NCBI RefSeq assembly: GCF_964275005.1
Contig: NC_092700.1
Span: 20,937,050-21,001,049, forward strand
DNA length: 64,000 nucleotides
Direction of reading: 5' to 3'
Source: Diadema setosum
Lineage: Eukaryota > Echinodermata > Echinoidea > Diadematoida > Diadematidae
A program made the translations under genes and the position numbers. Shown here piece by piece: positions 22,492 through 62,992 of the stretch; the first letter of the stretch is position 1; every line of letters begins with the position of its first letter. Under the pieces are notes generated by a model. It was given only the letters and a program-made list of their open reading frames with translations. It did no database searches and was not told the DNA's origin.

Positions 22492-22758
22492 GGTTATATA
22501 AACAGTGGACTTGCTGGCCGGATCCTGCAGGCGTCCAAGAATGAGTAGAGCTCACACTAGAAATGAAGTTGGTATAATATTCTTCTGATCCAAAACACCT
22601 GCAGTTTCTTCCATCAGTCACAGCCATGTCTTGGTTTCCGGTTTTCCCTCTACAGATGGATGCACACTCTTCGTCAAAATGGACATTAAAGCCGGAAACA
22701 TTAGATATAGCCTGAAAAGCGTCACGATCGCCCTGGTAGCATCCAAGAAATCCAGGTT
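22492..22758 (-). CDS. Gene A exon: WSC-like domain
   Basis: A 267-bp phase 1-1 exon (89 codons), acceptor ATGCAG, donor C|GTGAGT. It begins PGFLGCYQGDRDAFQAI, the hallmark WSC opening (lGCy.D), followed by EECASIC and NCRCFGSEEYY and ending HCLYN. Six cysteines are seen. The usual C-terminal cysteine pair of longer WSC domains (CsG...CGG) is absent, so this is a shortened form. WSC domains are cysteine-rich and putatively carbohydrate-binding. The paralogous exon in gene B (59978-60256) aligns along its whole length, which supports the boundaries. Confidence 0.9.
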
Positions 22759-24379
22759 CTGCATGTATGCGAAAAAAAAAAAAAAGATCGTTAAAATCTG
22801 AAAGCTATTTCCTAAAGCTAAATCCAATTCAATTCATTTCAATTCAAACTATATTTCATTTTTCGAAAGAACATAAACGTTTCACATTCTTCGGTAACAG
22901 AGAATAAGATTACATAATCAAAACAAAATAAATTTGAATTTTTGATTTGAGTTGATTTTATTTATTTCTGCTTAATTCCGTTACATCAGATATGATTATG
23001 TACACGTCATTTATGACAAACAGTATATCGACACATCATTTTTAGTACAATTATACAAGAAAAATACAAACAGCATGGGGACTTAAACAGAAGGGTCTCC
23101 AAAATAAGCCGAGGCTTGACGGTATGGAGACTCTATGCTTAGCTACTCTCGATAGAATAGAATAAGGAAATTGAGATAATATAATTGTGGAACCTTGGGG
23201 TAACAAATATGTCGTCATGAAAATTGACTGACTGAAGTGCTAAAGATGATAATTTTTAGATTATAACAATACGCACAACGTCGAAAAATGGAGGGACCCA
23301 CTAAAAAGACAAAGCTTCTAGAATGTGGACTCCTCAGGTACAGAATGTCAAATAGAAAAATTAACTGATGCAAAAAGGGGAGATAAGGCTGGGGAAAAAG
23401 TCAGGAAAAAAGTCTATAAAAAGTTTGGAAGCCCACTATGAAGACAGAGTGACAAACAGACACACACATACACACGCTAATAAACATTAAACGAGACTAC
23501 GACGACGACACTAATAAAGGCGGACTAAAAGACAAGACAGAATAAGACAAGACTAACATAACAGGAAGACAATACAACGGAGAGAAAGGCAAAACAGATC
23601 CAGCGATCCTCGACAGAATTATATCGAAGAAATAATGGGATACGTGAAAAGGATACAGAAATTTCGATAAACAGAGAGAAATAGATGCAGAAGTAACATA
23701 ATCAAAATCAATTGTGCTCTGTAAGTGTATCAGTGCGCTTAGAAACACCAGTATGAAGCGTCATATAAATGCAAGTATTATTATCATTATTATTATTATT
23801 ATTATCAGGACATGAATAGAATAGTAATTAATCAACTATGAATAGTAATTAATCCAAGTGACACTTTTCTCGTGAGTCCAGTCTCAATTATTCCCTTTAC
23901 AAATTTTCGATTGTTGAGAAAGTATAAATCACCGACCACTAAACTGATAAAGAGACGTTGTTGTTTTTTTTTTCTAAAGTGCACGTGGTATATAGTGATA
24001 CGTCTATATTGAACATCAAGTTTTTAAGACGAAAGCGCCTCAGAACAGTTGACAGTACATGGAGATTAGACGGACATTATCTTCGCACCATTGTCATGGA
24101 AGGCAACATAAGGTTGACAGTCATAACAAGGGAATCATTATACATGAAATACACGAGATGGGTGCAGTTATCAAGGACAGCGAGCTCTTCTCTCCTATTT
24201 TGGAAAATAAAAACACATAAAACAAACTCACACAATTTCTGGTGGCGAGATCGGGCCATCAAAGCATAAACCATTAATTTTCTTTAAAATGATGGCCAGA
24301 CTACCGGGCCACCAGTAGAGATGTCCAGCCTCTCACAAATAAATAGTAAATCGTTTGCACCTTTCATGTTCCATCTCAC
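22759..24379. repeat. Gene A intron with dispersed repeat (GAGACTC / ACGACGAC region)
   Basis: From about 22820 to 23560, AT-rich sequence with CAATTCATTTCAATTC and GGAGGGACCCACTAAAAAGAC resembles a segment at 38160-38660 (GGAGGTATCCACTGAGAAGAC) and more weakly 62150-62400. It looks like fragments of one dispersed family. A (TTA)n tract is at about 23773-23805. Confidence 0.5.
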
Positions 24380-24496
24380 CTCTGCATGTGAGTCTCACAG
24401 TCATGTTTGAGAGACACTTAGTTGCTTGTGATAGACAATCCTGTACCCTTGCACTCCGACAACCTGTGCATCGATATAGCGGAAATGATTCGAAAA
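24380..24496 (-). CDS. Gene A exon: SRCR domain, second half
   Basis: A 117-bp phase 1-1 exon (39 codons) between acceptor AAACAG and donor AGAG|GTGAGA. Joined to the preceding exon it reads YRCTGCRSARVQDC, then TKC and VRLTCRG, supplying SRCR cysteines 5, 6, 7 and 8 in the usual spacing, plus one extra cysteine in CTGC. Together the two exons give about 111 residues, the normal SRCR length. It is short and was found by searching for the missing C-terminal SRCR cysteines; frame and phase agree exactly with both neighbours. A reading frame on the opposite strand here (24355-24729) is judged to be chance. Confidence 0.87.
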
Positions 24497-24747
24497 CTGT
24501 TTATCAAAAACTTATCAAGCATTATCTGCGGTACGAAGAAACGTTTGCCATGCCTCTGAAACTTCCAGAGGATCTGGAGTTTGTGGGAAAAACAAAATAT
24601 ATTCTAGGTAATGATATATATCGCATTGATTTCGTAATTCGTAATATGAGTATTCCTAAATGTGTGAGTGTACTTACTCATTTGTCAAGTTATATTTCCA
24701 TTTCAGGAAATACAGATAAAACATATTGATATGTGCATTGCATTTAC

Positions 24748-24963
24748 CTGTAGAATATGAAAGCAATTGAGTCTTGTTTGATGTTCCTATTCTTGACATT
24801 ATATGAGGCGAATAATATTTTACCGCCGGGAAGCCGAGCTCTCTGCAGACTAAATCAGCAGCTAAAAGATTGAAGCCTTCATAGCACACAAATCTGTCTG
24901 AGTCCAGGCCCACTAAGCCCTCAATGGGAGAGGGTCCTCCAGCCAGTTGTACTGGTGATATTT
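24748..24963 (-). CDS. Gene A exon: SRCR domain, first half
   Basis: A 216-bp phase 1-1 exon (72 codons) after acceptor TTTCAAG, ending ACAG|GTAAAT. It opens with ISPVQLAGGPSPIEGLVGL, the classic SRCR start (V-x-L-x-GG), followed by RFVCYEGFN and ADLVCRELGFP, matching the positions of conserved SRCR cysteines 2 and 3. The usual WGTVCDDGW is replaced by RFVCYEGFN, so the two tryptophans are missing. Group A SRCR domains are commonly split between two exons, and the second half is found at 24380-24496. Known SRCR domains mediate extracellular protein or ligand binding; the ligand here is unknown. Confidence 0.9.
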
Positions 24964-25388
24964 CTTGAAATCAAAATGAGTATGCATTTCTAAACATGAA
25001 TGTTTGATTTGTTGAGCTTTAATATTGAAACATTTGATGTAATAATGATATAAACACTACATCATTTCAATTACAATAGTCCGTAGGTCAAGTAACACGT
25101 AGGCCTAATACGAGAACTGACAGCTCGTCTTCATTCAAATTACAGAGGATAACTATTGTTGTTTATGAAAAAAACTTGAGTTTTTTTATGTGTATCACAC
25201 AAACCATTGTCATCAGCGCTAAATTCGTTTGTATGCTGAATCCTTCAATTGTAAACAGCGCTAATTCAACTGCACAAAAATGACGAAAATTCAGTATTTT
25301 GTTGAAGTGTAGAACATGATGTTATTCCTGAGTGAATAATGAGAAAAAGAATCCTTTCACTATATACCGAAATACCCACAAACAAGGT

Positions 25389-25448
25389 AAAACAAAGTGG
25401 TCCTAATAAAAAGATGGGACCCACCTCTTCTTATTGGGACCACTTTGT
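25389..25448. repeat. Short inverted repeat in a gene A intron
   Basis: ACAAAGTGGTCCTAATAA is mirrored by TTATTGGGACCACTTTGT, followed by a T-run and G-run. Probably a small MITE remnant. Confidence 0.75.
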
Positions 25449-25762
25449 TGTTGTTTTTTTTTTTTTTGGGGGGGGGGGTATCTCAGTCATTTCAAAGCCA
25501 GTTTTCATTTTTATTAACTAGTATTTTCTCTTAGAATCGTACGTACACCTGCTAAAATATTCCATAGTTTTTAACTATTTCGCAAAACGTTAAAACATAA
25601 GTTCCCATCTCAACTAAAAGTAAGTAGGGTTACCTTATTTTTTTCTCAGAAAAAAATAAGATTAAAATGTCCTACAACGCGTTGTTCAGGGAAAATGATG
25701 TAAAAAGTATATGGAAACTGTCATATTCATTGTCTACAGAGGTATAAAGCAATGATATTCAC

Positions 25763-26071
25763 CTTCGTAACACCGTACGTTTATCATGAAATTCGCTACA
25801 TTTATGCTCCCATATACACGCACTTTCGTCTGATGTGTCAGTGATAAAACGGACGACATCACGTTGTGCCCCACAACAATAGTCTGAAATGCTCTGTTAG
25901 ATGTTAAATCTTCTATATAAGAAGCCATCCATGCGGTGTTGATAGACTGGATTTTAATGAGGAGTCGCCGTCCTGAAGGTGCCTGCATAACCCAACTACT
26001 GTTGGCGATGCATGCTCTATCACACGATATGTTGAGGTCTAGTGGCTTTTCCGAGTATTTGAGAGTCAAAT
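25763..26071 (-). CDS. Gene A exon: CUB-like extracellular domain
   Basis: A 309-bp phase 1-1 exon (103 codons). The acceptor is a pyrimidine-rich stretch ending CTGCAG at 26072, and the donor is G|GTGAAT at 25762. The product has a beta-rich CUB-like pattern: two close cysteines (SCDRACIANSSW), a hydrophobic strand (RRLLIKIQSIN), a near-terminal VRVYGS segment and a final RCYEG. It lacks the usual CGG start and the central C-x-Y-D, so it is a divergent CUB domain. It is the most N-terminal gene A exon I could identify. Another beta-sandwich family is possible; CUB is the best fit because CUB commonly occurs beside SRCR and CCP modules. Confidence 0.72.
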
Positions 26072-26668
26072 CTGCAGACGCAAAAGGAACGTGCGCACAT
26101 CAGGGATAATTGGAAGTAAACGTTCAATCTATTTAGTATTGCGTGAAAAGAGAATTACATTCCAACATAATTGAGCATTTATAACTGGAAAGTGTTTTGC
26201 AGTTCACAATTGTACGAATAAATTATTGTTGTTACAACATTTACTGACATTTCTTCTTTTTAATGAAATCTATTTACTCTGCAGCGTTCCAGGGCTAAAT
26301 AGGGGTATTGAAGAGTACTACGAAACAAAAGTGTTAACAAAGGCATAATTTAACGTTTGCACATGAAACAAAAACCAAGCTTTAGGTGCTTCAAAATAGT
26401 TCCAAAATGTGGTTCACGGATAGAAATATCCAATGTAAAAATTAGAATCAGTACAATTAATGTTAAGAATGGTTCAGTTCATAAAATGTGAACAATAGTT
26501 ATAATCAAAAATGTTTCTAAACGAAACTGTCAACAATTCAGCCATGGCTTATTGAGAAAAATAGTCATATCTCATAATATTTTTTAAGCTTTATTGCGAA
26601 ATGTTTACGTAGTAGGGTGTTTTTGTGACACAGTTGAACTATCATACTGTATATGCATCAATGTGATA
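26072..26668. other. Region upstream of the gene A CUB exon
   Basis: AT-rich intron sequence. The phase-1 partner exon (expected signal peptide) was not recognised here or further upstream. Confidence 0.45.
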
Positions 26669-44872: not shown

Positions 44873-45496
44873 TCATGCCTGAAGAACGAGATACCCACTT
44901 TCATCTAGCTCTTGCTCTTCTCTTTGCTTGCTTGAGTATATATTTACAGAATATAGTGAGTTGTTCAGGCACATCGGAAGAGCATCACATTTATCATTTC
45001 TCTCAATTGTCGAGTATTCGTGGACGTGTGGCGGTTCTCTGGTGGGTGTTGACTGGTCGGAAGTTGAAGGGGTTTCTTCGGAAATAACCCCAAATTTACT
45101 AGCATTATCTGCCGGTCTGGAATGGGTCGAAAGATCTCTGCTGATTGCCTGTCCAAAGAATTGAACACTGTTTATGTCAGACGTCTTTTCCTTTTCAAAA
45201 CTTTCCAGACGATCGTAATTAGCAGATCTGCGTGGATCTATGTTGGACATTATGTAGCCGTTTTCGTCAACGACGTTTTCAGTTGCAGAGGAGTTCCTAG
45301 ACTGAACAAATTTGACATCTCTCTCCTTTTTCTTCATACTTCCTGACATGTCCACGTATTGCTCTTTCTCGGCATCGGCTGTGGTGTTTTCACACTGCGA
45401 GATGTCTTCACCATCTTGGTGTAGTATGACGTCATGGAGAGGACGGGAAATCACCTCCGGTGGATCATTGATCATTTCTTCTGTTAGAATGTGATC
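44873..45496 (-). CDS. Gene B last exon: tyrosine-rich tail, copy 2, early stop
   Basis: A 624-bp exon entering in phase 0 after TTGATAG and ending in TGA at 44873-44875 (207 residues). Motifs: EKEQYVDMSGS (Y-x-x-M at residue 47), ENGYIMSNIDP, REPPHVHEYST, SLYSVNIYSSK and DESGYLVLQA at the end. Relative to gene A, the Y-E-E-I region is altered (FGVISEETP, both tyrosines lost) and the C-terminal NQYAN segment is cut off, because the gene A TGT codon aligns with TGA here. The downstream DNA is still alignable to gene A coding sequence but eroded. Confidence 0.83.
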   Translation of the reverse strand, partial: DHILTEEMINDPPEVISRPLHDVILHQDGEDISQCENTTADAEKEQYVDMSGSMKKKERDVKFVQSRNSSATENVVDENGYIMSNIDPRRSANYDRLESFEKEKTSDINSVQFFGQAISRDLSTHSRPADNASKFGVISEETPSTSDQSTPTREPPHVHEYSTIERNDKCDALPMCLNNSLYSVNIYSSKQREEQELDESGYLVLQA

Positions 45497-45925
45497 CTAT
45501 CAAGGACAATGGAGAATAAAGGATAGCATGATGATGAATCGTGTTGATTACCGTCATTAACGGTTAAAGATTAAAAAAAAAACGCATTAACAGTTTAATC
45601 TTATTTCAAGTGAATCGATATGTGCTTAAAAAAATGTGTAAACATCATGGACAAAGTACACACTGTCGTCCAACTCATGCTCTACTTTTTGTTTGATTGA
45701 GTATATCGTGACAGAATAAAGCGAACTGTTCAGCCTATATTGTATATTGCAAGAGGGTCACGTTTACAATTTATAGTGGCGATTCTCTAGTGGGTTTGTC
45801 GGAAGTTGAAAGAATATCTTCGTAAAATGACCGGTCAGAAACTTTTCATCTACCAGCGTTATCTAAACTGAATGGACATAGTATCTCTGTCCCCGTTCAA
45901 ATCTCATTGGTCTGCGTTGACTTAC

Positions 45926-46180
45926 GTTGGAAATCATGTAGCCGTTTCCATCAACGTCGTTTTCAGTTGCAGATGAGTCTCTAGATTGAACAAATTTGAC
46001 GTCTCTCTTCTTCTTCTTCACACTTCCTGACATGTCAGTGTATTGCTCTTTTTCGGCATTGATTGTGGTGTCTTGACACTGCGAGATGTCTTCACCATCT
46101 CGGTGTAGTATTATGTCATGGAGAGGCCGGGAAATCGTGTCTGCAGGATCGTTAATCATTTCCCCTTCAGAAGTGTGATC
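45926..46180 (-). CDS. Gene B tail exon, duplicated copy 1 (Y-x-x-M)
   Basis: A 255-bp exon with phase 0 at both ends (85 codons): acceptor TTGATAG and consensus donor AAC|GTAAGT. It contains ISRPLHDIILHRDGEDISQC and EKEQYTDMSGS (Y-x-x-M at residue 47) and ends NGYMISN. It corresponds to the first part of the neighbouring tail exon 45496-44873. Beyond the donor the homology continues for a short distance but frame and similarity decay, so the GTAAGT is the natural end. Splicing it in adds a second tandem Y-x-x-M module without shifting frame. Expression is untested. Confidence 0.72.
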
Positions 46181-46669
46181 CTATCAAGGAAGATGGCAAG
46201 TGAAGGAAAGCATGAAATCATTAACAGTTTATGTGTATTCATCACAATAAATGACGTAAGCATTGTCGTTTAGATCATTCTGAAAATATGGCACCACGAG
46301 GCTCCATAGTCACACGCTCCTATAACATTATAACAATTTTAATCGCGAGTATCGGCGAATGGTAATATTCACACGGCAGGATACTGACAATTTACCGAAA
46401 AAACAAACTTTAAGAAGTGTTAAACCTTTCTGGCGCCTTTGTATTAATTAGATTATTAATTAGAGCTAATTTCAAAATGTTTCTAATCTATTCCATTCAT
46501 GATCTTTTTCATTCTGAGCAGAAATATTATGAGTTCATTTTTGCACGGAAGAGATCTCTTAAAAGGCCCTTTTAAAATTGCTGCAGAAGGAATTCACCTT
46601 TTTAGAAGCCAAAGGAGTTAGGTTCAAAGATAATGACATGCTTTCATAACGATAATAAAAGGTGATTAC

Positions 46670-46841
46670 GTTTGCAAGGTCCTGGTAGATGTAAGACACA
46701 TCCTCCAGATTATCTGTGGAGTTGCCAGTTTTGTTGCGCGGATGTTGCGGAAGAGGACGATGTGCAGCTAGTGTACCGGTATTGATAGAGTGCAGTGAGC
46801 GGGTATGCAATTCATTTGCAACTTTCGGGCGCCTACGTTTC
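46670..46841 (-). CDS. Gene B exon: membrane-proximal cytoplasmic segment
   Basis: A 172-bp exon, identical in length and phase (2 to 0) to gene A exon 10238-10409. It begins with RKRRRPK after CAATAG and ends SYIYQDLAN|GTAATC. Shared landmarks with gene A include HSIN/HAIN, PLP..., TGNSTDN and the terminal YIYQ. The Y-x-N pattern of gene A (YQNP) is YQDL here, so the two tails may recruit different partners at this site. Confidence 0.82.
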
Positions 46842-47632
46842 CTATTGAGCAAAATGAAGGATACGAGAGAAAGGTTCTGGGGAGTATGACGCTGTAAAAA
46901 ATCAAAACACTGATACATAATTAGGAAAATGAGAAGAACTCCGGCAAATAATTCACTTGTTTACCTGTTTCTGCAGCAGAATCCGTATATTTCAAATTAT
47001 ATGAAAATTATTCATTTCATTCATAGATACTTTAAATGGTTTGAATTCCATTTGCCCTCGTTTTATCCACAAATGTCATTGTGTATGAGGCAGGGTCATA
47101 TTTGTAATACTAAATATGTTGCAATGTACATACTGTAAGCATCTATGCATTGTGTGTGGATATTTCCTTGCAGCTTCTTCCACAGGCAGCCTGTTTTCCT
47201 TCCAGATGAGATTCAGGAAATGCGTATCAAAATAGAAATAATATGATTATGGCTATAATGTTGACAGGGATGTTTGGTGCTTCCAAAGAGTATGCAAGCC
47301 CCCTACTGGAGAGCGGGATTTTTTTGATTATTCATGATTTAATATTCATTGGGTTTGTTATTGATTCCATGATAACACAGAAAGTAATTGTCCCAAAGGA
47401 TGGCGTTTACGCCAGAAATTGTTAATTCTGCAATTTCGCGATTTTTGTAGACTGCTCAGTTTTCAGTTACTGTTTTTTTTTTTCATGCGAATCTTAATCC
47501 TTACTCACTGCTTTCCTCATAGGAGGTAACACGAGGTACGATTATAGTTGTAATAATGATTATGATAACAATAAGTAAATAAATAAATATATATATATAA
47601 TAATAATGATAGTGATAATAATAATGATAATA

Positions 47633-47685
<53 letters not shown>

Positions 47686-48088
47686 CATTATTATTATAAT
47701 TATAAGGTCTTATTTACCCAGGGAAGCCACTTCAGTGTTGCCACTGGTCTACCAGAGGGCCCTGCTATTATTATAATATTATTACCCTATTATTACCATC
47801 CCCTCAAAGTGTAATATTCTTATGGCTTAAAACCATTAATATTAGCAACGATTCTTCATATTTTTGGCCCTATTCCACCTGCAATTAGTAACGAGATACC
47901 ATTGAAGACTTGCTACGGCAAAGTGCTAACACTAACACGTTCTCACTAAATTATTTTATATACGAAATTGTTAGTGGATGTAAACAAGAGCTTACCTAAA
48001 CGATGAAATCGCTCCTTCCCTCCCCCTCCCCCAAACACACAAAGACACAGACACACACACAGAAAAACAGACACTCAACAAGTCTCAC
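46842..48088. other. Gene B intron with trinucleotide microsatellite
   Basis: A (TAA)/(TTA)n tract at about 47580-47705 is the main feature. A short plus-strand frame (47243-47425) has a hydrophobic stretch but no recognised family and opposes the host gene. Confidence 0.5.
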
Positions 48089-48209
48089 CTCTTCTTGTGA
48101 TGGTGGCACCAAAGCAGAGAAAGGACGACAAGCAACATGAGAACGACGAACAGAAAGGTTCCCATGACGTAGAGGACTGAAGTAATATATATTTGAAGAT
48201 GGCCAGACT
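48089..48209 (-). CDS. Gene B exon: transmembrane segment
   Basis: A 121-bp exon entering in phase 1 after ACACAG and leaving in phase 2 at AG|GTGAGA. It encodes a short lead (ESGHLQIYITS), a strongly hydrophobic helix of about 24 residues (VLYVMGTFLFVVLMLLVVLS and following LLW) and a basic HHHKKR stop-transfer end. It matches the position, phases and ending of the gene A exon 12600-12714, though the sequences have diverged, as usual for membrane segments. Confidence 0.87.
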
Positions 48210-48547
48210 CTGTGTTTACAATAAGAAATACAACTTTCGTGACATGAAAAAAAAAAGAACAGCATGTGCGTAAAAATGTGAAGAGATTTTAAAGGAGCTT
48301 CTCAATATGTGGCTTATGATATTGCATTTTATGATTGTGATATTTTATCACTTAGTCAGTGCAAAGGTAGAATTTTTTATGTTCTGCAAGGTCAGGACAA
48401 CATAAATACGGGTGAATTAAAAACGAGAAATCAATGATAGCACAACGTGCACACATGCACACACACACACACACACAATTATATTTATATATAGCTTAGC
48501 AAATAAAAGAAAGTAAATATTTTTTCACGTTTATACAGAGCGTGTAA

Positions 48548-49345
48548 AAAAAAAAAAAAGTAATCCAACTTTGGAGGGCTCCCATTACTTAATTGTCAGC
48601 TATGACATGTATGAAGAGCACAATGTTGGTTGTCAGGAGAGGGAAACTCTTCCCCTCCTCATTGATGCCTAATTTTGTTGACAATTGTCATGCATGAATG
48701 AGCATATGAACTTTAAAGACAACAACGACAAATTGCACTTTTTCCAAGTTTGCCCTCTATTATGAAGGAACAATGCATCTCTCACTGCATGGATGAGATC
48801 CGTCAATGAAAGTTGCCAAATAGACCAGCCTGTACAAATGCATGTTTTTGTTTAGTATTTGTGTTTAGTGTTTGTATTCAAGTTTTTTCCTGACATTGTA
48901 TGGTCCATAACCTTTGATATGGACTTTTGTCCGATAACTTGGTCACTCCCAAAGAGGCCAACCCACACAGTCCATTTTCTCTGTTTATATTCAACATATA
49001 TTGATAGCTTCCAGTGACAACCATGTCTTGAATATGAAGAGAGTAAAATGGATAATGTTTTCGCCTGTATGGGAAGGGCTAAGTTACCGACAATGTGGCC
49101 ATGTTGAAGGTTATGGACCATAAAACATTAGAAGAAACCCTAAAACATGAATCTACAGTCGTGCAGACCGGCCTGATGATATTTTGACCACATTCATTGA
49201 CAGATCTCATCCATCCAGTGAGACATGCATTGTTCTTTCGCAATAACACGCAAACTTGGAAAAAGTACAATTTGTCATTGTTGTCTTTAAAGTTCATGTG
49301 CGCAGTCATGCATGGCATATGTCAACATGATTAGGTGCCATTACT
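48548..49345. mobile_element. Near-palindromic fold-back element, copy 2
   Basis: Matches 15154-16050: GTAATCCAACTTTGGAGGGCT at the left, GCATGGATGAGATC near 48786 with its inverted partner near 49205, and TCATGCATG(G/A)C near both ends. The right end lacks the terminal GGTAATCC arm, so it is truncated. Confidence 0.82.
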
Positions 49346-50895
49346 TCCCATTTCACTGTGGTTTAGTTTCCCCCTTGACTTTTCCACTTTGATTATGTTT
49401 GAGGTTATAAAAGAGATAAAGATAACCTAAACTTGTTTTTGCTATTTCATTCATGTCTCTCTGTTTATATTGTTATCTTGAAGTGTATTTGCAAATGAAA
49501 GACAACATGTCAATTTTTTTCAATTTTATCTTTTGTGACTTGTAATTTAATCAAGGTAACCAAGTTAATGGCCTATTAAACTTCCTTTTATATAGCATAT
49601 GGTACATTGATTCTCATTAAATTCTTTTATTGGTTTCGCGTTTTTAGATTCATATGCATATATGTTGTCTTGGTATATATGAATAATTCCTTTGTAAAAT
49701 GTGCTAGATCCACTTTGCATGGTAAGGAAGAAACGTATGATTTTTATTTTATGCCTTCGAGTGTATCATGCAATGACACCATGTCCAACAATACTACCCC
49801 TCTATGCGAAAAAGAAAACATGTCTGGGAAAAATCTGCAAGATATTGTTTTGGATGTGGTGAGTGTTGATCTTTTGGAATCAAAGTTTTATCACGTGATG
49901 TACCATACGTAGTATCTTATCATAGTGAATAGTTTCTGTGACTTTGTGTATTTTTCTGGGAAGATTTATAATCCCTATACTTTTTCCTCCTGTTTCCTCC
50001 ATCTCTACGAAGAAGTAATATTCAAATAAAACATTTAGAGTCAATACTCAAGTAATATGTGGCTCATCTGAAGGGCTACACAGGCAGGACAGTGTGGTCA
50101 AGCGTGCACACGGGTTTCTGAATTGATCCTGCTAGATTTAGGTCCTTTTGAAAGAACACTCATTTTATTTTCCTTGAATTCTCCATTTTTCCGTGAGAAT
50201 TTTAAAAATTTGAAAAGTTCTCTGTATACCACCAATAAAAGTGAATACACTTTTGTCAAAAAGTCTTACTCGAATAAAAAAAGGATTTATTGCCGTCACT
50301 TTATTTTTGAGTACTTAATATCAACTGTTAGCTTTAACTGATACGGTTCGTGATTGACATCAGTTTACAAGTATTTATAGGTAAGTAAGGAATGGCAAAC
50401 ATCTATGTCACTGTATATCAACGTAAAATATTGTCAATAACCATTGGATTTAGTAAGAAGAATCAAAGAGGGAAAGGGGTAAGAGGACAGAACTTAATAT
50501 CACAGAGCTCACCAGAAGGAGTCGTGGTAGCTGTCTTTGGCAATGACGTCTGCCGATCGCCTATTCATAGACAGCAAGTAAGTTGATGGTACATATACAC
50601 GCACTATTAAAAGACATGTCAATTACATTGGTTTAACAAGTTATTTCTAAACCCTTCTGTAAGTAGTCCATGATTTTCCTCAACTACTGACATCTAGAAA
50701 AAATATCATTATTGTCTGTTTTTATTGCTGTCGTTATAACAGAAACTGCAGTAGCTGATAAACAGACAAATCGTTTAGTCTCTCAGGCTGTTGACGATAG
50801 TAATATCCGCAAACTTAATTTAGCACTGCTTTTCCAAATTTATTCATTAAAGACACACCATCCCCTTAGCATGCAAATTTTTGAAAATTTGGTGA
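49346..50895. other. Gene B intron, left flank of the array
   Basis: AT-rich. Plus-strand frames at 49607-49912 and 50712-50918 have no recognised domain and oppose the host gene. It contains the insertion site of the tRNA-like array. Confidence 0.45.
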
Positions 50896-50911
50896 GAACA
50901 CTTAGATATTG
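50896..50911 (+). repeat. Left 16-bp target-site duplication of the array
   Basis: GAACACTTAGATATTG directly abuts the first array base. The same 16 bases follow the array at 57857-57872. The last four bases (ATTG) also match the array unit at this point (TTTTCATTG|CAACTG), a 4-bp microhomology. Confidence 0.9.
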
Positions 50912-51007
50912 CAACTGATTGACAAATTGCCCTACATCGACGTAAATAAGCACTGAATTGATCAGTGTTTTTTAGTAGTAGCCATGATAAAAAATCATGG
51001 GCGTACA

Positions 51008-51079
51008 TACTCGAGCAGGATTCGAACCTACGACCTCCTGATCACCGGACAGGCGTCATCTCCACTAGACCACCGAGCT
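51008..51079 (-). tRNA. tRNA-like element (exemplar; 24 direct copies, 269-bp spacing)
   Basis: On the minus strand a 72-nt sequence folds as a tRNA: 7-bp acceptor (one A-A mismatch, two G-U), 3-bp D stem, anticodon stem of 4 pairs plus one T-T mismatch, 5-nt variable loop, and a 5-bp T stem with TTCGAAT loop. A box TGGTCTAGTGG and B box GGTTCGAATCC both match the Pol III consensus. The anticodon position reads GGT (threonine-type), but position 33 is C instead of the near-invariant U, so it is probably a tRNA-derived SINE-like promoter rather than a translating tRNA. A T6 run 14 nt downstream (50989-50994) is a likely Pol III terminator. Further copies start at 51008 plus multiples of 269 up to 55850, then at 56120, 56389, 56658, 56927 and 57196. 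Confidence 0.8.
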
Positions 51080-54000
51080 TTCGCCCGACAGCAAGTGTTG
51101 GTTCTAATCCTTATAGCATGCAGCGGGTACTGCTTTGTTATTCAAATTCATGAAATTCTTCCGTCGAGATGTTTTCATTGCAACTGATTGACAAATTGCC
51201 CTACATCGACGTAAATAAGCACTGAATTGATCAGTGTTTTTTAGTAGTAGCCATGATAAAAAATCATGGGCGTACATACTCGAGCAGGATTCGAACCTAC
51301 GACCTCCTGATCACCGGACAGGCGTCATCTCCACTAGACCACCGAGCTTTCGCCCGACAGCAAGTGTTGGTTCTAATCCTTATAGCATGCAGCGGGTACT
51401 GCTTTGTTATTCAAATTCATGAAATTCTTCCGTCGAGATGTTTTCATTGCAACTGATTGACAAATTGCCCTACATCGACGTAAATAAGCACTGAATTGAT
51501 CAGTGTTTTTTAGTAGTAGCCATGATAAAAAATCATGGGCGTACATACTCGAGCAGGATTCGAACCTACGACCTCCTGATCACCGGACAGGCGTCATCTC
51601 CACTAGACCACCGAGCTTTCGCCCGACAGCAAGTGTTGGTTCTAATCCTTATAGCATGCAGCGGGTACTGCTTTGTTATTCAAATTCATGAAATTCTTCC
51701 GTCGAGATGTTTTCATTGCAACTGATTGACAAATTGCCCTACATCGACGTAAATAAGCACTGAATTGATCAGTGTTTTTTAGTAGTAGCCATGATAAAAA
51801 ATCATGGGCGTACATACTCGAGCAGGATTCGAACCTACGACCTCCTGATCACCGGACAGGCGTCATCTCCACTAGACCACCGAGCTTTCGCCCGACAGCA
51901 AGTGTTGGTTCTAATCCTTATAGCATGCAGCGGGTACTGCTTTGTTATTCAAATTCATGAAATTCTTCCGTCGAGATGTTTTCATTGCAACTGATTGACA
52001 AATTGCCCTACATCGACGTAAATAAGCACTGAATTGATCAGTGTTTTTTAGTAGTAGCCATGATAAAAAATCATGGGCGTACATACTCGAGCAGGATTCG
52101 AACCTACGACCTCCTGATCACCGGACAGGCGTCATCTCCACTAGACCACCGAGCTTTCGCCCGACAGCAAGTGTTGGTTCTAATCCTTATAGCATGCAGC
52201 GGGTACTGCTTTGTTATTCAAATTCATGAAATTCTTCCGTCGAGATGTTTTCATTGCAACTGATTGACAAATTGCCCTACATCGACGTAAATAAGCACTG
52301 AATTGATCAGTGTTTTTTAGTAGTAGCCATGATAAAAAATCATGGGCGTACATACTCGAGCAGGATTCGAACCTACGACCTCCTGATCACCGGACAGGCG
52401 TCATCTCCACTAGACCACCGAGCTTTCGCCCGACAGCAAGTGTTGGTTCTAATCCTTATAGCATGCAGCGGGTACTGCTTTGTTATTCAAATTCATGAAA
52501 TTCTTCCGTCGAGATGTTTTCATTGCAACTGATTGACAAATTGCCCTACATCGACGTAAATAAGCACTGAATTGATCAGTGTTTTTTAGTAGTAGCCATG
52601 ATAAAAAATCATGGGCGTACATACTCGAGCAGGATTCGAACCTACGACCTCCTGATCACCGGACAGGCGTCATCTCCACTAGACCACCGAGCTTTCGCCC
52701 GACAGCAAGTGTTGGTTCTAATCCTTATAGCATGCAGCGGGTACTGCTTTGTTATTCAAATTCATGAAATTCTTCCGTCGAGATGTTTTCATTGCAACTG
52801 ATTGACAAATTGCCCTACATCGACGTAAATAAGCACTGAATTGATCAGTGTTTTTTAGTAGTAGCCATGATAAAAAATCATGGGCGTACATACTCGAGCA
52901 GGATTCGAACCTACGACCTCCTGATCACCGGACAGGCGTCATCTCCACTAGACCACCGAGCTTTCGCCCGACAGCAAGTGTTGGTTCTAATCCTTATAGC
53001 ATGCAGCGGGTACTGCTTTGTTATTCAAATTCATGAAATTCTTCCGTCGAGATGTTTTCATTGCAACTGATTGACAAATTGCCCTACATCGACGTAAATA
53101 AGCACTGAATTGATCAGTGTTTTTTAGTAGTAGCCATGATAAAAAATCATGGGCGTACATACTCGAGCAGGATTCGAACCTACGACCTCCTGATCACCGG
53201 ACAGGCGTCATCTCCACTAGACCACCGAGCTTTCGCCCGACAGCAAGTGTTGGTTCTAATCCTTATAGCATGCAGCGGGTACTGCTTTGTTATTCAAATT
53301 CATGAAATTCTTCCGTCGAGATGTTTTCATTGCAACTGATTGACAAATTGCCCTACATCGACGTAAATAAGCACTGAATTGATCAGTGTTTTTTAGTAGT
53401 AGCCATGATAAAAAATCATGGGCGTACATACTCGAGCAGGATTCGAACCTACGACCTCCTGATCACCGGACAGGCGTCATCTCCACTAGACCACCGAGCT
53501 TTCGCCCGACAGCAAGTGTTGGTTCTAATCCTTATAGCATGCAGCGGGTACTGCTTTGTTATTCAAATTCATGAAATTCTTCCGTCGAGATGTTTTCATT
53601 GCAACTGATTGACAAATTGCCCTACATCGACGTAAATAAGCACTGAATTGATCAGTGTTTTTTAGTAGTAGCCATGATAAAAAATCATGGGCGTACATAC
53701 TCGAGCAGGATTCGAACCTACGACCTCCTGATCACCGGACAGGCGTCATCTCCACTAGACCACCGAGCTTTCGCCCGACAGCAAGTGTTGGTTCTAATCC
53801 TTATAGCATGCAGCGGGTACTGCTTTGTTATTCAAATTCATGAAATTCTTCCGTCGAGATGTTTTCATTGCAACTGATTGACAAATTGCCCTACATCGAC
53901 GTAAATAAGCACTGAATTGATCAGTGTTTTTTAGTAGTAGCCATGATAAAAAATCATGGGCGTACATACTCGAGCAGGATTCGAACCTACGACCTCCTGA

Positions 54001-57000
54001 TCACCGGACAGGCGTCATCTCCACTAGACCACCGAGCTTTCGCCCGACAGCAAGTGTTGGTTCTAATCCTTATAGCATGCAGCGGGTACTGCTTTGTTAT
54101 TCAAATTCATGAAATTCTTCCGTCGAGATGTTTTCATTGCAACTGATTGACAAATTGCCCTACATCGACGTAAATAAGCACTGAATTGATCAGTGTTTTT
54201 TAGTAGTAGCCATGATAAAAAATCATGGGCGTACATACTCGAGCAGGATTCGAACCTACGACCTCCTGATCACCGGACAGGCGTCATCTCCACTAGACCA
54301 CCGAGCTTTCGCCCGACAGCAAGTGTTGGTTCTAATCCTTATAGCATGCAGCGGGTACTGCTTTGTTATTCAAATTCATGAAATTCTTCCGTCGAGATGT
54401 TTTCATTGCAACTGATTGACAAATTGCCCTACATCGACGTAAATAAGCACTGAATTGATCAGTGTTTTTTAGTAGTAGCCATGATAAAAAATCATGGGCG
54501 TACATACTCGAGCAGGATTCGAACCTACGACCTCCTGATCACCGGACAGGCGTCATCTCCACTAGACCACCGAGCTTTCGCCCGACAGCAAGTGTTGGTT
54601 CTAATCCTTATAGCATGCAGCGGGTACTGCTTTGTTATTCAAATTCATGAAATTCTTCCGTCGAGATGTTTTCATTGCAACTGATTGACAAATTGCCCTA
54701 CATCGACGTAAATAAGCACTGAATTGATCAGTGTTTTTTAGTAGTAGCCATGATAAAAAATCATGGGCGTACATACTCGAGCAGGATTCGAACCTACGAC
54801 CTCCTGATCACCGGACAGGCGTCATCTCCACTAGACCACCGAGCTTTCGCCCGACAGCAAGTGTTGGTTCTAATCCTTATAGCATGCAGCGGGTACTGCT
54901 TTGTTATTCAAATTCATGAAATTCTTCCGTCGAGATGTTTTCATTGCAACTGATTGACAAATTGCCCTACATCGACGTAAATAAGCACTGAATTGATCAG
55001 TGTTTTTTAGTAGTAGCCATGATAAAAAATCATGGGCGTACATACTCGAGCAGGATTCGAACCTACGACCTCCTGATCACCGGACAGGCGTCATCTCCAC
55101 TAGACCACCGAGCTTTCGCCCGACAGCAAGTGTTGGTTCTAATCCTTATAGCATGCAGCGGGTACTGCTTTGTTATTCAAATTCATGAAATTCTTCCGTC
55201 GAGATGTTTTCATTGCAACTGATTGACAAATTGCCCTACATCGACGTAAATAAGCACTGAATTGATCAGTGTTTTTTAGTAGTAGCCATGATAAAAAATC
55301 ATGGGCGTACATACTCGAGCAGGATTCGAACCTACGACCTCCTGATCACCGGACAGGCGTCATCTCCACTAGACCACCGAGCTTTCGCCCGACAGCAAGT
55401 GTTGGTTCTAATCCTTATAGCATGCAGCGGGTACTGCTTTGTTATTCAAATTCATGAAATTCTTCCGTCGAGATGTTTTCATTGCAACTGATTGACAAAT
55501 TGCCCTACATCGACGTAAATAAGCACTGAATTGATCAGTGTTTTTTAGTAGTAGCCATGATAAAAAATCATGGGCGTACATACTCGAGCAGGATTCGAAC
55601 CTACGACCTCCTGATCACCGGACAGGCGTCATCTCCACTAGACCACCGAGCTTTCGCCCGACAGCAAGTGTTGGTTCTAATCCTTATAGCATGCAGCGGG
55701 TACTGCTTTGTTATTCAAATTCATGAAATTCTTCCGTCGAGATGTTTTCATTGCAACTGATTGACAAATTGCCCTACATCGACGTAAATAAGCACTGAAT
55801 TGATCAGTGTTTTTTAGTAGTAGCCATGATAAAAAATCATGGGCGTACATACTCGAGCAGGATTCGAACCTACGACCTCCTGATCACCGGACAGGCGTCA
55901 TCTCCACTAGACCACCGAGCTTTCGCCCGACAGCAAGTGTTGGTTCTAATCCTTATAGCATGCAGCGGGTACTGCTTTGTTATTCAAATTCATGAAATTC
56001 TTCCGTCGAGATGTTTTCATTGCAACTGATTGACAAATTGCCCTACATCGACGTAAATAAGCACTGAATTGATCAGTGTTTTTTTAGTAGTAGCCATGAT
56101 AAAAAATCATGGGCGTACATACTCGAGCAGGATTCGAACCTACGACCTCCTGATCACCGGACAGGCGTCATCTCCACTAGACCACCGAGCTTTCGCCCGA
56201 CAGCAAGTGTTGGTTCTAATCCTTATAGCATGCAGCGGGTACTGCTTTGTTATTCAAATTCATGAAATTCTTCCGTCGAGATGTTTTCATTGCAACTGAT
56301 TGACAAATTGCCCTACATCGACGTAAATAAGCACTGAATTGATCAGTGTTTTTTAGTAGTAGCCATGATAAAAAATCATGGGCGTACATACTCGAGCAGG
56401 ATTCGAACCTACGACCTCCTGATCACCGGACAGGCGTCATCTCCACTAGACCACCGAGCTTTCGCCCGACAGCAAGTGTTGGTTCTAATCCTTATAGCAT
56501 GCAGCGGGTACTGCTTTGTTATTCAAATTCATGAAATTCTTCCGTCGAGATGTTTTCATTGCAACTGATTGACAAATTGCCCTACATCGACGTAAATAAG
56601 CACTGAATTGATCAGTGTTTTTTAGTAGTAGCCATGATAAAAAATCATGGGCGTACATACTCGAGCAGGATTCGAACCTACGACCTCCTGATCACCGGAC
56701 AGGCGTCATCTCCACTAGACCACCGAGCTTTCGCCCGACAGCAAGTGTTGGTTCTAATCCTTATAGCATGCAGCGGGTACTGCTTTGTTATTCAAATTCA
56801 TGAAATTCTTCCGTCGAGATGTTTTCATTGCAACTGATTGACAAATTGCCCTACATCGACGTAAATAAGCACTGAATTGATCAGTGTTTTTTAGTAGTAG
56901 CCATGATAAAAAATCATGGGCGTACATACTCGAGCAGGATTCGAACCTACGACCTCCTGATCACCGGACAGGCGTCATCTCCACTAGACCACCGAGCTTT

Positions 57001-57062
57001 CGCCCGACAGCAAGTGTTGGTTCTAATCCTTATAGCATGCAGCGGGTACTGCTTTGTTATTC

Positions 57063-57856
57063 AAATTCATGAAATTCTTCCGTCGAGATGTTTTCATTGC
57101 AACTGATTGACAAATTGCCCTACATCGACGTAAATAAGCACTGAATTGATCAGTGTTTTTTAGTAGTAGCCATGATAAAAAATCATGGGCGTACATACTC
57201 GAGCAGGATTCGAACCTACGACCTCCTGATCACCGGACAGGCGTCATCTCCACTAGACCACCGAGCTTTCGCCCGACAGCAAGTGTTGGTTCTAATCCTT
57301 ATAGCATGCAGCGGGTACTGCTTTGTTATTCAAATTCATGAAATTCTTCCGTCGAGATGTTTTCATTGCAACTGATTGACAAATTGCCCTACATCGACGT
57401 AAATAAGCACTGAATTGATCAGTGTTTTTTAGTAGTAGCCATGATAAAAAATCATGTACGCCCATGATTTTTTATCATGGCTACTACTAAAAAACACTGA
57501 TCAATTCAGTGCTTATTTACGTCGATGTAGGGCAATTTGTCAATCAGTTGCAATGAAAACATCTCGACGGAAGAATTTCATGAATTTGAATAACAAAGCA
57601 GTACCCGCTGCATGCTATAAGGATTAGAACCAACACTTGCTGTCGGGCGAAAGCTCGGTGGTCTAGTGGAGATGACGCCTGTCCGGTGATCAGGAGGTCG
57701 TAGGTTCGAATCCTGCTCGAGTATGTACGCCCATGATTTTTTTTCATGGCTACTACTAAAAAACACTGATCAATTCAGTGCTTATTTACGTCGATGTAGG
57801 GCAATTTGTCAATCAGTTGCAATGAAAACATCTCGACGGAAGAATTTCATGAATTT
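57063..57856. repeat. Fold-back junction: 394-bp inverted arms with 6-bp spacer
   Basis: Direct units run to ATCATG at 57451-57456, then TACGCC, then the same sequence in reverse complement from CATGATT at 57463. The arms 57063-57456 and 57463-57856 are near-perfect inverted copies, with one visible substitution near 57745. Both sources share ATG at the switch point, a 3-bp microhomology. Confidence 0.93.
57652..57723 (+). tRNA. tRNA-like element, inverted copy
   Basis: The single complete tRNA-like copy in the inverted terminal part of the array, now on the plus strand. A box, B box and fold match the direct copies. Its terminator run is longer: T8 at 57737-57744, because the A that follows T6 in the direct units is T here. 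It is the only unit pointing against the host gene. Confidence 0.8.
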
Positions 57857-57872
57857 GAACACTTAGATATTG
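57857..57872 (+). repeat. Right 16-bp target-site duplication of the array
   Basis: GAACACTTAGATATTG, identical to 50896-50911. Its first three bases (GAA) also continue the inverted array unit (AATTTGAATAAC), a 3-bp microhomology. Host sequence resumes as AAGCAAACAC. Confidence 0.9.
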
Positions 57873-59103
57873 AAGCAAACACTATTTGGAAACCTCCTCT
57901 TAATTTTGAACACAAGAGGATCTTTATTTGTCGAGTTAAATTGACCGTTAAGATTCGAATATTTTTTTTCGTACTACGATAAAATTACAAATCTAAACTA
58001 CTAGTCTAGTTTAACAGACCTGTGTGATGCACCTATGTAGTTCATGTAAGTTTTATGTTGTTATTTGCCGTGGATAACAAAGTGAAAGAAGCTAGTGAAT
58101 TCTTCCTTTCTGACAGCTTGAACATGCATATATATGTTTTGTTCGAAGTATAAGTATCATATTACAACTACAGGGGGATAAGTTTGTGCAACTGTGCCTC
58201 GTACACAGAATACGTTACGGTGAGCATTTGGTGCATTTGTTGAATCTTAACGGTTAACAACCTTTCAATATAACAGACATGTTATAGCTTTACAATAGCC
58301 TTGTCATTCTGGTGGAATATATCATGTTCTGTGGTATTTGGAATGGCATGCAAAAGGGATGGCCCATCTTTAAGACATTTAGAAAATAAAATAGTTCATG
58401 TAGGCCTAAAAAGTTTTGGAAAAACGATGTAACACAGTTCCGTTTTGCTTTTTCTTAAGATACTTATAGCTTACACACATACAAACTGATTAGTTCATGG
58501 TTATGATTTATGCACTTAAAGTACCGTCTGTATGTGATGATTTTGTGCTGAATTCGTCATCGCGTCTCTCAAATACGTAAACATGTACAAATGGAATTAC
58601 TGCACCAAGAAGCGGACATATTTCCCTGATATACATTTGAAATTTGAAACACCATTGCTACACGCATCAAAAGGATTCTTGAAGCAAAAGGATGGGGGCC
58701 TCCCTCGGAGAGTCTAAATGTAGATAAAAGATGCTAATTTCACATTAACATTTGTTTTGGCAATTATTGGCTATTAAGGGAAGAGACTGTAAGGACATTT
58801 AAAAGCAGTAAAAGGCTCCATTCGCATTGATGACTCACCGCATCATAAGAAAAATCAAATGTGTACTCATATACATTTACGATTACCACTCTTAACATAA
58901 AAAAGAGATTTAGATCAGCAGTTGCGATCTCACATATGTTATTTGTACAAAGGGGTGTCAAGATAAAGAAAACTCGACCAGACATCATGTCTCAATATTT
59001 TAGAAAATTAGATAACTGTCTCATTGTTCTTCTTTTACACGAAAATTTTATTTCTCGTTACATTATGATATGCTTTAAGATGAATAAAATATGAAAGTCA
59101 CAC
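57873..59103. other. Gene B intron, right flank of the array
   Basis: AT-rich intron sequence. A minus-strand GCG|GTGAGT donor-like site at about 58839 ends an open stretch, but phase and sequence do not match a gene A exon, so it is not called. Confidence 0.45.
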
Positions 59104-59331
59104 CTTTCGTTGTAAATTCGACTGCCAGGCAAGATGGGACTGACGCGTTCCAAACCGGGAAGTAAGTCGACCATCCAGGCCGTCCCACACACTGGAGTGT
59201 CGCGCTGCCAGTTTTTAGTAGCATGAAGCCTTCACCACAAGTAAGAGTTATCTTAGATCCAAAGCTCGTGTGATTAGAGTCCCAATAACCATCAGACACA
59301 GGGCTGGGATGCTTGCAAAACCCGACAGAAA
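59104..59331 (-). CDS. Gene B exon: CCP/sushi domain
   Basis: A 228-bp phase 1-1 exon (76 codons), acceptor CGCAAG, donor G|GTGTGA. It contains VGFCKHPSPVSDGYWDS, ITLTCGEGFMLL, TLQCVG and VWNASVPSC, the four sushi cysteines and tryptophan. Compared with gene A it has two extra residues (LKTGSAT for NGSAT). High nucleotide similarity to 17989-18210 indicates recent common origin or conversion between the two genes. Confidence 0.93.
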
Positions 59332-59977
59332 CTTGCGATAGAAGAGAATAGGTTCAATTTCAAGTAAACTATGCTGAAACTAACGAAACAATCAAAATGA
59401 TATAAAGAAAATTAAATACGGAAACAGAAAGAAGCAAACAAGAATGTTCATCATAAAAGTAATCATTTTTGCTGTCGCCACCATTGCTGACAAAATCGTT
59501 ATGACAATGAAGACACTCTATCTTTTTGTACCCACATATGTGATAAACTATCACCCCAACAGTTGACTTGTAACCCGTGTTTCCATAAAACCCGATGAAA
59601 ACAGGAAGTTTGGCATTCTCATGAACTATATCAAACACAGAAATTGCGCCTATTGGCAATCTACAGTAAAGAACATTTATAAGCACGTGCATATTAGGGA
59701 GAATGTCAGTGAGAACTGAGAACATTGTATGTAATTCGCTTTTTGTTTTGTGTTTTTTTTTTCTTTTCAGCGGTATCTGATAACAGATGACTTGTTTCAA
59801 TAGTGATGACAATGTCTGTTGACGTACTGATGCATTACATAGCTGCATCCCTAAAATACTGTTGACGTGTTATTTACACGATGAAATATAATGCTATTTA
59901 CAATGGCTATCAGAGAATAATGAGAATATTAAAGAAAAAATCCTTACTGTCATAGGTCGAATACTTTTGATACTCAC

Positions 59978-60256
59978 TGTCAAACAAACAACTGACATGC
60001 TGGTCGGATTCTCCCTTGGTTTGGGTTGTCCAAGAATGAGTAAAATGAGTATAGCTCTCTCCAGAACTGAAGTTGGCATATTTTTCTGATTGATAACATG
60101 TGCAGTTCCTTCCATTAACAATAGCAATGTCGTGGTTTTCGGGTTTCCGTCCACAGGTAGACAAACACTCTTCGTTCGACTGAAGTTTAAAGCCGGAAAC
60201 GTGTAAAGCCTCAAAAGCGTCACGATCGCCCTGGTAACACCCAAGAAATCCAGGTT
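59978..60256 (-). CDS. Gene B exon: WSC-like domain
   Basis: A 279-bp phase 1-1 exon (93 codons) with acceptor ACGCAG and donor A|GTGAGT. It opens PGFLGCYQGDRDAFEALHVS like its gene A counterpart, then NEECLSTC, NCTCYQSEKYANF and SCLFD, giving the same six-cysteine pattern. NCT and NFS are possible glycosylation sites. The 12-bp length difference from gene A lies in the loop before the last cysteine (QTKGESDQHVSC). It is the most N-terminal gene B exon visible. Confidence 0.9.
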
Positions 60257-62992
60257 CTGCGTTCATACAGAATGATTATTTATGACACTACATCTACAAA
60301 CAATTTCTTAATGCTGAATCGTTTGTGATTGTAGTTTTCCGGTGACAAAATTCTTAATAAACCTTATATATCAATGTTGAATAGATAGATGAAAACACCC
60401 ATAAATTGTGGAAGTTATGTATACTTTCATTCATATTATTTACTTTTAGATAGTAAGAATGATATGCCTTATCATACACTTATTTATATACTTATTTGAA
60501 CTGAATGATCATTTCTCAAAAGAGAAAAAACAACAAAATTTACAACACTGTCGGGATATGGATGCAGGACGGGCATCATTTTTGGCCTATCTACGGGCAA
60601 GAGGAGGTGAGAGTCTGAACAAGAGAACTGCTAGACGCCGATTTTGATTCAAAGTGAAATCACTTAACCCTTTTTTTTTAAAATAAAGCTATCGTTATCC
60701 TCGATCCAAACGGAGACAAGTTTTGTCGAATAATTCAATTTCTTTCTGAAACTGTTTCTCTTTAAAGAATTATAATGATAACGAGATGGAATGAACCATT
60801 AATCGACCTTGAAATTCGATACATTTCCTACCTTTGAAATGTTCGGGATATAGAATTGTTCCTAGTGTCTTAGTACGCAGTTAAAATCTAAGTAGTCTTC
60901 AATAAGATATTCTGTCCGAAAACTACATTCATTGTGTTAAATCAATGCAAAACTCAACGAAATTTGTTATTTACATGTACGGGATACAATTGGGGTGGCT
61001 CGACAAAACACATATTCATGAATTGGTATTGTATAACTATACATGACTGGAATGGCAATTTCGCAGTTCATTTTACTTTTTGTTGTTTACCTATCACAGT
61101 GTTATGTCAGTGATAAGTTCATTAATCATTGCATAGGTTTTAAGTGGATTTTCATTCACCTATACGGAAGTGAGATTACTATCCAATAAAAAGACATCAC
61201 ATAAAACCATAAAAAGCAGACACATGACAAACATTAGTGTAGAGATATTCAACTCTGTAGTTTAGATGGTGTTATAAGTGTCCGGAGGCAAGATATTAAC
61301 ATACACAGTAAATCATTCCCTAACAAAAAAGCGGACGTGCATATTACAGACAAAAGTCTTCGTATTTCTGACAGGAGGTATCTAATGCTCTCCAACTTTT
61401 ACAAGTAATTATTTTTTTTTTCTTTTCAACCAAGTCATCTTATTTTCCTTTGTCAGGGTACTACAGTAACATGACAAATATGAATATGTAACCCATCCCC
61501 CTTTTTACGACATACTATGTTTGAATTTACTAGTATTTATATCATCATTATTGTTTTCTTTTGTTGCCCTCTTTTAAATTTGGTTGCCCGAAAAAAAGTT
61601 TCATCGTTCAACAAAATACCAAAATATCAAAATAATTCATCATAATCATAAAATCATATAAATTAGCAGGTTTGATAATGTGTTCATATTACCACAGACT
61701 ATGACTATTAAAAGAAATAAGAAAGAAGAACATTGATAAATGCAAGAATTGAATAAAACGTTGAGTTTATAGTTACAAACCACTGTTACTATGGTAGGTG
61801 CAGGTATAATCAGGGGCTTTAAATGCCACATACTGTGATTGAGTTCACTTTATTGAATTGAAGAATAGGCTTTACTTTTCGTGATACCACATAATCTTTC
61901 ATGAATCTAATTTATTTAACATAGGGGTAGACCTAATTCTATCATTGAATAGATAGAGTTTTGCCTTAGAATTTGGTCACTAAGAAACAGTTTGGATGAA
62001 TTTCACTGGAAAACAAGACTGGGTTGGACGATGAAGACTGACGGTGGCCTGGCAACCCTGGACGGTCGGCAGACACCTGGATTTTTTTTTCCATCCTTGA
62101 GCCTTTAATCATTCTCACTACTCTGGATGAGCAAACACATAAAGGCTCGATTTGACTTGATTTGAGTTGATTTGGTTTGATTTATTGATTCCTGTATTAT
62201 CATTATACATTGAAGTTAATTTCGTTCATTCATTTATTTCTATTTCGAAACATATTAATACAATAAAATAAAACCTTCATTAAAATCATTCCTTATAAAT
62301 AATTATTATATTTTAACTGAGCACTTATCAGACAAAGTGAAATGATAAAAAAAGGTAAAGGCTAAAAAGAAGAAAAAAGACAGAGGCAGAAACAATGTAA
62401 ACTTATACGGATAGTTTCTGGTACATTTCACCAAAAAGATATTTTTTTAACGAGCAATCTAAATTGACGTAAAGTCTTACTTCCCTTGATTGATGGAAGA
62501 AGGGTATTCCAAAGACTTGGGCCATTGTAATGTATGAAAGATTGAGTCGTTGGAATCTAGTTTTATGGTGTATGAGTATTCTAAGCATTCCTAATGTTGT
62601 AATTATGGATAGACCGACTCAGAGTGCATTAAGTCTGAAATTCTTTAGGAAGAATAATGTTACAAACTTTAAACGTAAAAAATCACACTTTCAAGACAAA
62701 TAAATTCTTAAACACCTAAAATTGTCATCTTGCGCAATAATGGCTTACCCGAAGCTACTGTAAATATAAATGAAAATTTAATAATTATAGTAATCTCCTT
62801 ACATCAAATTGAAATTACGATGATTCCAGTTCGCGTTCAAAATAATGTATGAAGTCTTATGAACATTCAAAATCAATTTATTTACTGACTTCCAAATACT
62901 TATACAACCAAGTTGAATATTCATATCATAAAACAATGTCTTAGGATCTGTGCCTTTGCACTTTTGTCATCTGCAACAATCCGCCATCATAT
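60257..62992. other. Upstream region of gene B, no recognised exon
   Basis: Searched on the minus strand for CUB or SRCR modules; none was seen. It contains AT-rich repeats, including a TTGAGTTGATTTGGTTTGA tract (62150-62190) like those at 22940 and 38170. Confidence 0.45.

Follow-up and report, generated by a model that had tools for sequence, protein, structure and literature searches.

The 64,000-nucleotide window analysed here (Diadema setosum, contig NC_092700.1, positions 20,937,050 to 21,001,049) contains a long array of nearly identical 269-bp units, each with a tRNA-like part, between two copies of a short host sequence. The question raised by this locus was how such an array came to lie at this site. 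The array was found to belong to a family of non-coding insertions with facing arms, two different fixed ends and target duplications. With a probability of about 0.72, it is a non-autonomous retroelement that arose by target-primed reverse transcription from two ends, as in Penelope.

Structure of the window array

One tandem array was detected in the window by Tandem Repeats Finder (TRF), with a period of 269 bp, 24.3 copies and 99% matches (coordinates in Table 1). Twenty-three of its 24 unit intervals were identical and the remaining one was longer by one base. ARAGORN detected 24 tRNA-like genes on the minus strand and one on the plus strand, and all 25 scored 42.8 bits each in Rfam, where the gathering score is 29. 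Apart from the tRNA match, a weak small nucleolar RNA match far below the cut-off was the only hit of the unit in Rfam up to E = 5. On the tRNA strand, TGGTCTAGTGG and GGTTCGAATCC matched the consensus sequences of the A and B boxes, respectively. The same strand had one run of six T (T6) and no other run of four or more T. The T6 run was located about 11 nt 3′ of the tRNA-like part. The first-pass annotation, made from the letters of the window only, had described 24 direct and hardly diverged units, each with a tRNA-like fold and with A and B boxes, and this description was confirmed. Its T-run terminator was present as well, but in the middle of the unit and not at its end.

The long arm was joined to an inverted arm of about 1.5 units, comprising a 101-bp partial unit, one complete unit and 36 bp. 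The complete inverted unit that had been described was found, but the arm was not limited to it. The two arms met with a 3-bp ATG overlap. The 16-bp sequence GAACACTTAGATATTG bordered the array on both sides and was absent elsewhere on that strand of the window. At most four bases on one side and three on the other could belong to either the duplication or the element. The remaining 9 bp were unambiguous, in agreement with the host duplication noted at first.

Ends, joints and units across the family

A genome search with one unit, in which 39 of 411 candidate regions were scored, yielded at least 256 matches. A second search with a 99-bp end query yielded 830 candidate regions, 40 of which were scored. 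The analysis comprised 38 loci, the window and 37 others from the unit search, which were the best matches and thus biased to young copies. Two facing arms were present in 30 of the 38 loci, always as plus units followed by minus units, and the reverse order was found in none. The tRNA strand pointed outward in both arms of every two-armed locus. Eight loci showed a single orientation (L013, L014, L027, L034, L035, L038, L039 and L040). A check proposed beforehand had asked for arrays at unrelated loci, and these were found with variable copy number, an inverted end and duplications of 11–17 bp, as expected from a mobile insertion and not from a satellite. Old tandem copies of the 269-bp unit, 66–78% identical, adjoined a young array in L016 (4044–4871), which shows that the history of the family in this genome is long.

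The longest exact match between the flanks of a locus was at least 10 bp in 30 of the 38 loci, compared to 5 of 1406 cross-locus flank pairs. A second script resolved both ends in 28 loci and left ten. In 27 of the 28, a duplication was present with a maximal length of 11–17 bp, 12 or 13 bp in 19 of them. The A+T content was 73% in these duplications and 64% in the flanks. In the same 27 loci, one end was located at A (unit position ~1) and the other at B, about 37 bp further round the unit. End A was on the left in 15 and on the right in 12 loci, and none of the 28 had two A or two B ends. With this difference of about 37 bp, the ends did not form matching terminal inverted repeats. An A-rich or short-repeat tail was not found at A or B in the resolved loci, where the ends abutted the duplication directly. 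The 28th locus, L030, lacked a duplication, and only one of its ends was canonical, of type B. Among the ten others, L012 and L026 looked on visual inspection like members of the 27, their duplications measuring 15 and 13 bp, respectively. L027 and L038 showed an A end and a duplication with only a trace of the B arm, and L013, L014, L034, L035, L039 and L040 had one canonical end and no duplication. The predicted fold of the monomer was more stable than that of shuffled sequences (z = −3.39), whereas the A/B end region alone was not (z = −1.17). A stem with covariation around site A, proposed by eye from the window unit and one old L016 copy, was dropped because other old copies seemed not to keep it.

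The position of the central joint varied along the unit from locus to locus. The two arms overlapped by at least 2 bp in 15 of 28 joints, compared to 15.5% of simulated random joints of the same unit; the comparison is approximate, as the observed overlaps were BLAST alignment ends and the simulation used exact matching. In L026 (4617–4696), one insertion measured only 56 bp and was composed of a B end plus an A end alone, lacking the tRNA-like part; the 12-bp flanks on its two sides had one mismatch.

Variants were called against the window's own unit. Six loci each had a private variant that was shared by all covering units of both arms and missing from the 37 other loci. Four were substitutions: C31T (7/7 units in L022), T263A (11/11 in L028), T228A (12/12 in L031) and G213A (7/7 in L045). 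Two were insertions as placed by the aligner, i81T (7/7 in L024) and i86T (6/6 in L032). One variant was common to L030 and L039, in all covering units of both. Among 176 full units from the 38 loci, substitution differences averaged 1.0 inside a locus and 2.2 across loci; the means were 1.2 and 2.4 when the window was excluded. The private variants show that each of the six arrays originates from one unit. Repeats inside single arms spanned two units in L036, three in L020 and four in L040, so the template was a single unit where the evidence is clearest and a multimer of two to four units elsewhere. Seventeen loci had at least four full units. Eight of them carried a variant other than A248T in every full unit, including two one-armed loci. 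A248T was the commonest difference and was present in every full unit of 24 of the 37 other loci. The window unit had no base unlike all other loci, and the window array had no private variant; it may also have originated from one unit. Gene conversion after insertion is a possible alternative source of these variants, though only if it operated from one arm to the opposite one.

Proposed mechanism and alternatives

Variable joints, the fixed ends A and B and private variants filling six loci indicate that the array was built on site by reverse transcription. The earlier view of a ready-made array inserted as a single body was not supported, on the same grounds. The family would consist of non-coding retroelements of Diadema setosum with units of 269 nt. 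Insertion would begin with an endonuclease that cuts the two strands of an AT-rich target site about 12–13 nt apart, leaving 3′ overhangs. Both 3′ ends would then prime reverse transcription of the element RNA, the one starting at A and the other about 37 nt off, at B. To judge from this geometry, the RNA would have the sense of the tRNA strand. Reverse transcription would circle repeatedly on a circular (or terminally redundant) RNA, and each arm would grow as a tandem array. The two complementary DNAs (cDNAs) would then be joined 3′ end to 3′ end, often via microhomology, and fill-in of the cut ends would give the target duplication. Two primed cut ends with 3′ overhangs would thus produce outward-pointing arms, one duplication and a central microhomology joint. 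Early joining of two short cDNAs would give an insertion like the 56-bp one in L026, which is hard to explain by a transposon cut out at its ends. The machinery would most likely be a Penelope-like element (PLE) acting in trans. The tRNA-like box is the probable promoter of the RNA, presumably transcribed by RNA polymerase III (Pol III).

A purified PLE of an anole was reported to cleave and extend both strands in vitro (PMC11167929). Reverse transcription by this element begins at two neighbouring internal positions, and the sequence that separates them forms the tail of genomic copies (PMC11167929). In Penelope copies of Adineta, the pseudo-long terminal repeats (pLTRs) are inverted, one of them bears a 31-bp tail, and the duplications are 9–10 bp long (PMC3846280). 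Like Poseidon of Anolis (PMC11167929) and Pen2a of Adineta vaga (PMC3846280), the 269-bp family had inverted arms, the 3′ ends of which point outward with the tRNA strand as presumed RNA sense, and a tail of 30–40 bp at one end. Target duplications, a tandem arrangement, two internal start sites of reverse transcription and AT-rich targets were further likenesses. By analogy, the window tail is regarded as the counterpart of the Penelope tail described in PMC11167929. Unlike PLEs, the family had no open reading frame (ORF) and no recognised hammerhead, carried a tRNA-like Pol III box in every unit and reached up to 24 units in one arm. The ORF for reverse transcriptase and GIY-YIG of autonomous PLEs was not found in the unit, which is far too short for it.

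PLEs were present in the genome. At least 51 GIY-YIG matches were detected with 150 of 247 candidates scored, some of them in open frames of 740–1004 amino acids, and one frame combined RVT_1 and GIY-YIG. Two PLE copies were seen at both ends. The first (L053/L057, G000:C3:5513060-5519000) had 168-bp inverted end repeats (97%) with a hammerhead-like core. The second (L049/L056, G000:C16:23201653-23207900) belonged to another family and had a 418-bp pLTR with a further, inverted copy behind the ORF, adjoining TA runs. Neither copy can fully serve as a model of how the 269-bp family is laid out. A tRNA match of 36.5 bits was located upstream of a GIY-YIG element (L058:1127-1193) and matched the unit over only 32 nt at 75%. 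It is possibly a lead to a partner, or just a tRNA gene.

Metazoan retrozymes are tandem 150–450 bp repeats with type I hammerheads that are found as circular RNA, and PLEs are their suspected machinery (PMC7229834). They seem to be without promoters (PMC7761336). The 269-bp family resembled non-LTR retrozymes of metazoans (PMC7229834, PMC7761336) in its non-coding tandem units of a few hundred base pairs, in the range of 170–400 bp, from dimers to dozens, in duplications longer than 4 bp, in the proposed circular RNA template and in the stable predicted fold. The one-unit origin of six arrays would fit an expression as linear and circular RNA, as in retrozymes. Unlike retrozymes, for which the hammerhead is the defining feature, the unit had no recognisable hammerhead and possessed A and B boxes. 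The family also had inverted arms, whereas the main text of PMC7229834 never uses the word ‘inverted’. A genome-wide hammerhead search, with 73 of 104922 candidates scored and no signal from any control, was uninformative. The first-pass annotation could name no element class close to the array, but the array matches the published PLE layout of inverted arms with a 30–40 bp tail, combined with retrozyme-type tandem units. The family is best read as working like a PLE-moved retrozyme; it was not filed as a retrozyme because the hammerhead test failed. Somewhat short of even odds, it may be a short interspersed nuclear element (SINE) of Penelope. Such a PLE-driven parasite would have its own Pol III promoter in place of the ribozyme. 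Its RNA circle, or something that serves the same function, would be formed in a different way, perhaps via the tRNA-like part and the tRNA-processing machinery, and would be reverse transcribed by rolling-circle, two-ended priming. Among titles and the opening lines of abstracts, a coverage with most subscription journals outside it, no tRNA-bearing tandem element of PLE type was found.

Several observations weigh against a Penelope-type origin. Pol III would terminate at the T6 run and not reach sites A and B, so that a full template needs read-through or another polymerase; the T6 run thus speaks against plain Pol III transcripts as the template, since they would not be long enough. Eight of the 38 loci had no duplication of at least 10 bp by script; among them, L038 was counted as a miss with 9 bp, yet showed a 12-bp duplication by eye. 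Eight of the 28 joints contained 1–8 unassigned bases and no overlap. Nine of the 17 loci with at least four full units, including the window, had no all-unit variant besides A248T, and for these the reading from one template is neither supported nor excluded. No hammerhead was found in the unit by Rfam up to E = 5, and the core CTGANGA was absent from both strands of the doubled unit. No target duplication was found by search at the C3 copy, and the repeats of the C16 copy face the other way in our reading. Sequence common to the unit and PLEs was at chance level only in 16 pieces from 13 of the 51 GIY-YIG places. The assignment to PLEs rests on layout, since no autonomous partner was found among the PLE pieces compared.

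The same two-ended Penelope-type insertion could also have used a linear template, a Pol III read-through RNA extending from just upstream of one tRNA-like part to the T6 run of the next unit. With a terminal redundancy of about 100 nt, reverse transcription arriving at the RNA 5′ end would re-anneal near the 3′ end and produce scarless repeat rounds. The A and B boxes and the single run of four or more T per unit would give such an RNA naturally; it would hold both start sites and account for the exact 269-bp registers as well as a circle. However, the window array would need T6 read-through and dozens of successful re-annealings, and the six loci with all-unit private variants require one RNA molecule or source throughout. 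A linear template is considered unlikely. Lower still is the probability of a tRNA-derived SINE moved by a long interspersed nuclear element (LINE), with the inverted arm from twin priming and the tandem units from later unequal crossing-over. tRNA-derived SINEs are short and non-coding and have a tRNA-like head with A and B boxes, and the 269-bp unit shares these features. Variable duplications are usual in LINE-driven insertions and twin priming yields inversions, which also count for this explanation. Unlike such SINEs, which are single-copy insertions, the family forms facing tandem arrays, with two arms in 30 of 38 copies and without an A-rich or short-repeat tail. Two fixed start sites, one per end, in 27 of 28 loci are strongly against it, and the same private variants in opposite arms of six loci are not given by unequal exchange alone. 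LINE twin priming was set aside on these points, with no search of the genome for LINEs.

Facing arms built of tandem repeats are known from the TU fold-back elements of sea urchins, and a fold-back DNA transposon of TU or FB type would account for the facing tandem-repeat arms and the target duplications. The partial analogy to TU, drawn at first, is weaker than the match to PLEs and retrozymes. The ends A and B were not inverted copies of each other, the joint moved between copies and often showed microhomology, the maximal duplication length of 11–17 bp was not constant, and private variants filled six whole loci. Units of 269 bp with tRNA-like boxes and duplications of 11–17 bp were further differences from TU elements. 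A fold-back transposon is thus highly improbable and was set aside without a search of the genome for transposases. An ordinary satellite or an assembly artefact, which would agree with the near-perfect identity among units, is scarcely credible. The loci were dispersed on many contigs, each with its own duplication, which refutes this explanation for the family. The genome figures agreed with those of the published PacBio HiFi assembly of Diadema setosum, 912,728,646 bp with a scaffold N50 of 39,828,611 (PMC13264686).

The later steps of Penelope-like integration are still unvalidated (PMC11167929), and metazoan retrozyme repeats have no motif showing which machinery moves them (PMC7761336). 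The 269-bp family, with promoter boxes and no recognised ribozyme in its unit, bears on both points. The 38 loci, among hundreds of candidate regions, keep start sites, stagger and cDNA joints of single events; as SINEs of Penelope, they would be natural records of single PLE integrations. Arrays of many units seem to arise in one step, which is also a route to seed satellite-like DNA in introns.

Feature coordinates and genomic surroundings

Table 1. Features of the array and its borders, in window positions.
Feature	Position	Strand	Remark
Left target-site duplication copy, GAACACTTAGATATTG	50896..50911	+	Last 4 bases ATTG possibly element
Long arm with outer end A (ATTGCAACTG...), built of 24 complete 269-bp units and one partial unit of 92 bp	50908..57456	+	
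Short inverted arm: 101-bp partial unit, full unit, ~36 bp to end B	57454..57859	-	
Tail between start points A and B (~37 bp), at one end only	57824..57859	-	
Right target-site duplication copy	57857..57872	+	First 3 bases GAA possibly element
First of 24 long-arm tRNA-Thr-like sequences, with A and B boxes	51006..51080	-	
Last of 24 long-arm tRNA-like sequences	57194..57268	-	
T6 run, Pol III terminator-like, ~11 nt 3′ of first tRNA-like part	50989..50994	-	
Inverted-arm tRNA-like sequence, pointing outward right	57651..57725	+	

Sushi and weak SRCR matches were detected around the array, all on the minus strand of the window. On the right, one Sushi exon was located about 1.2 kb from the array; the other matches were more than 25 kb to the left and may belong to a different gene. 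A position of the array in an intron is plausible. Two similar receptor-like exon runs were seen by eye on the minus strand (8671–26099 and 44873–60275), with Sushi in both and weak SRCR in one; they are perhaps tandem paralogues. A 54-bp tandem repeat with three copies was present at 7603–7777 and contained the palindrome-like sequence AGGTGATACGCTGATAGCGTATCACCT.

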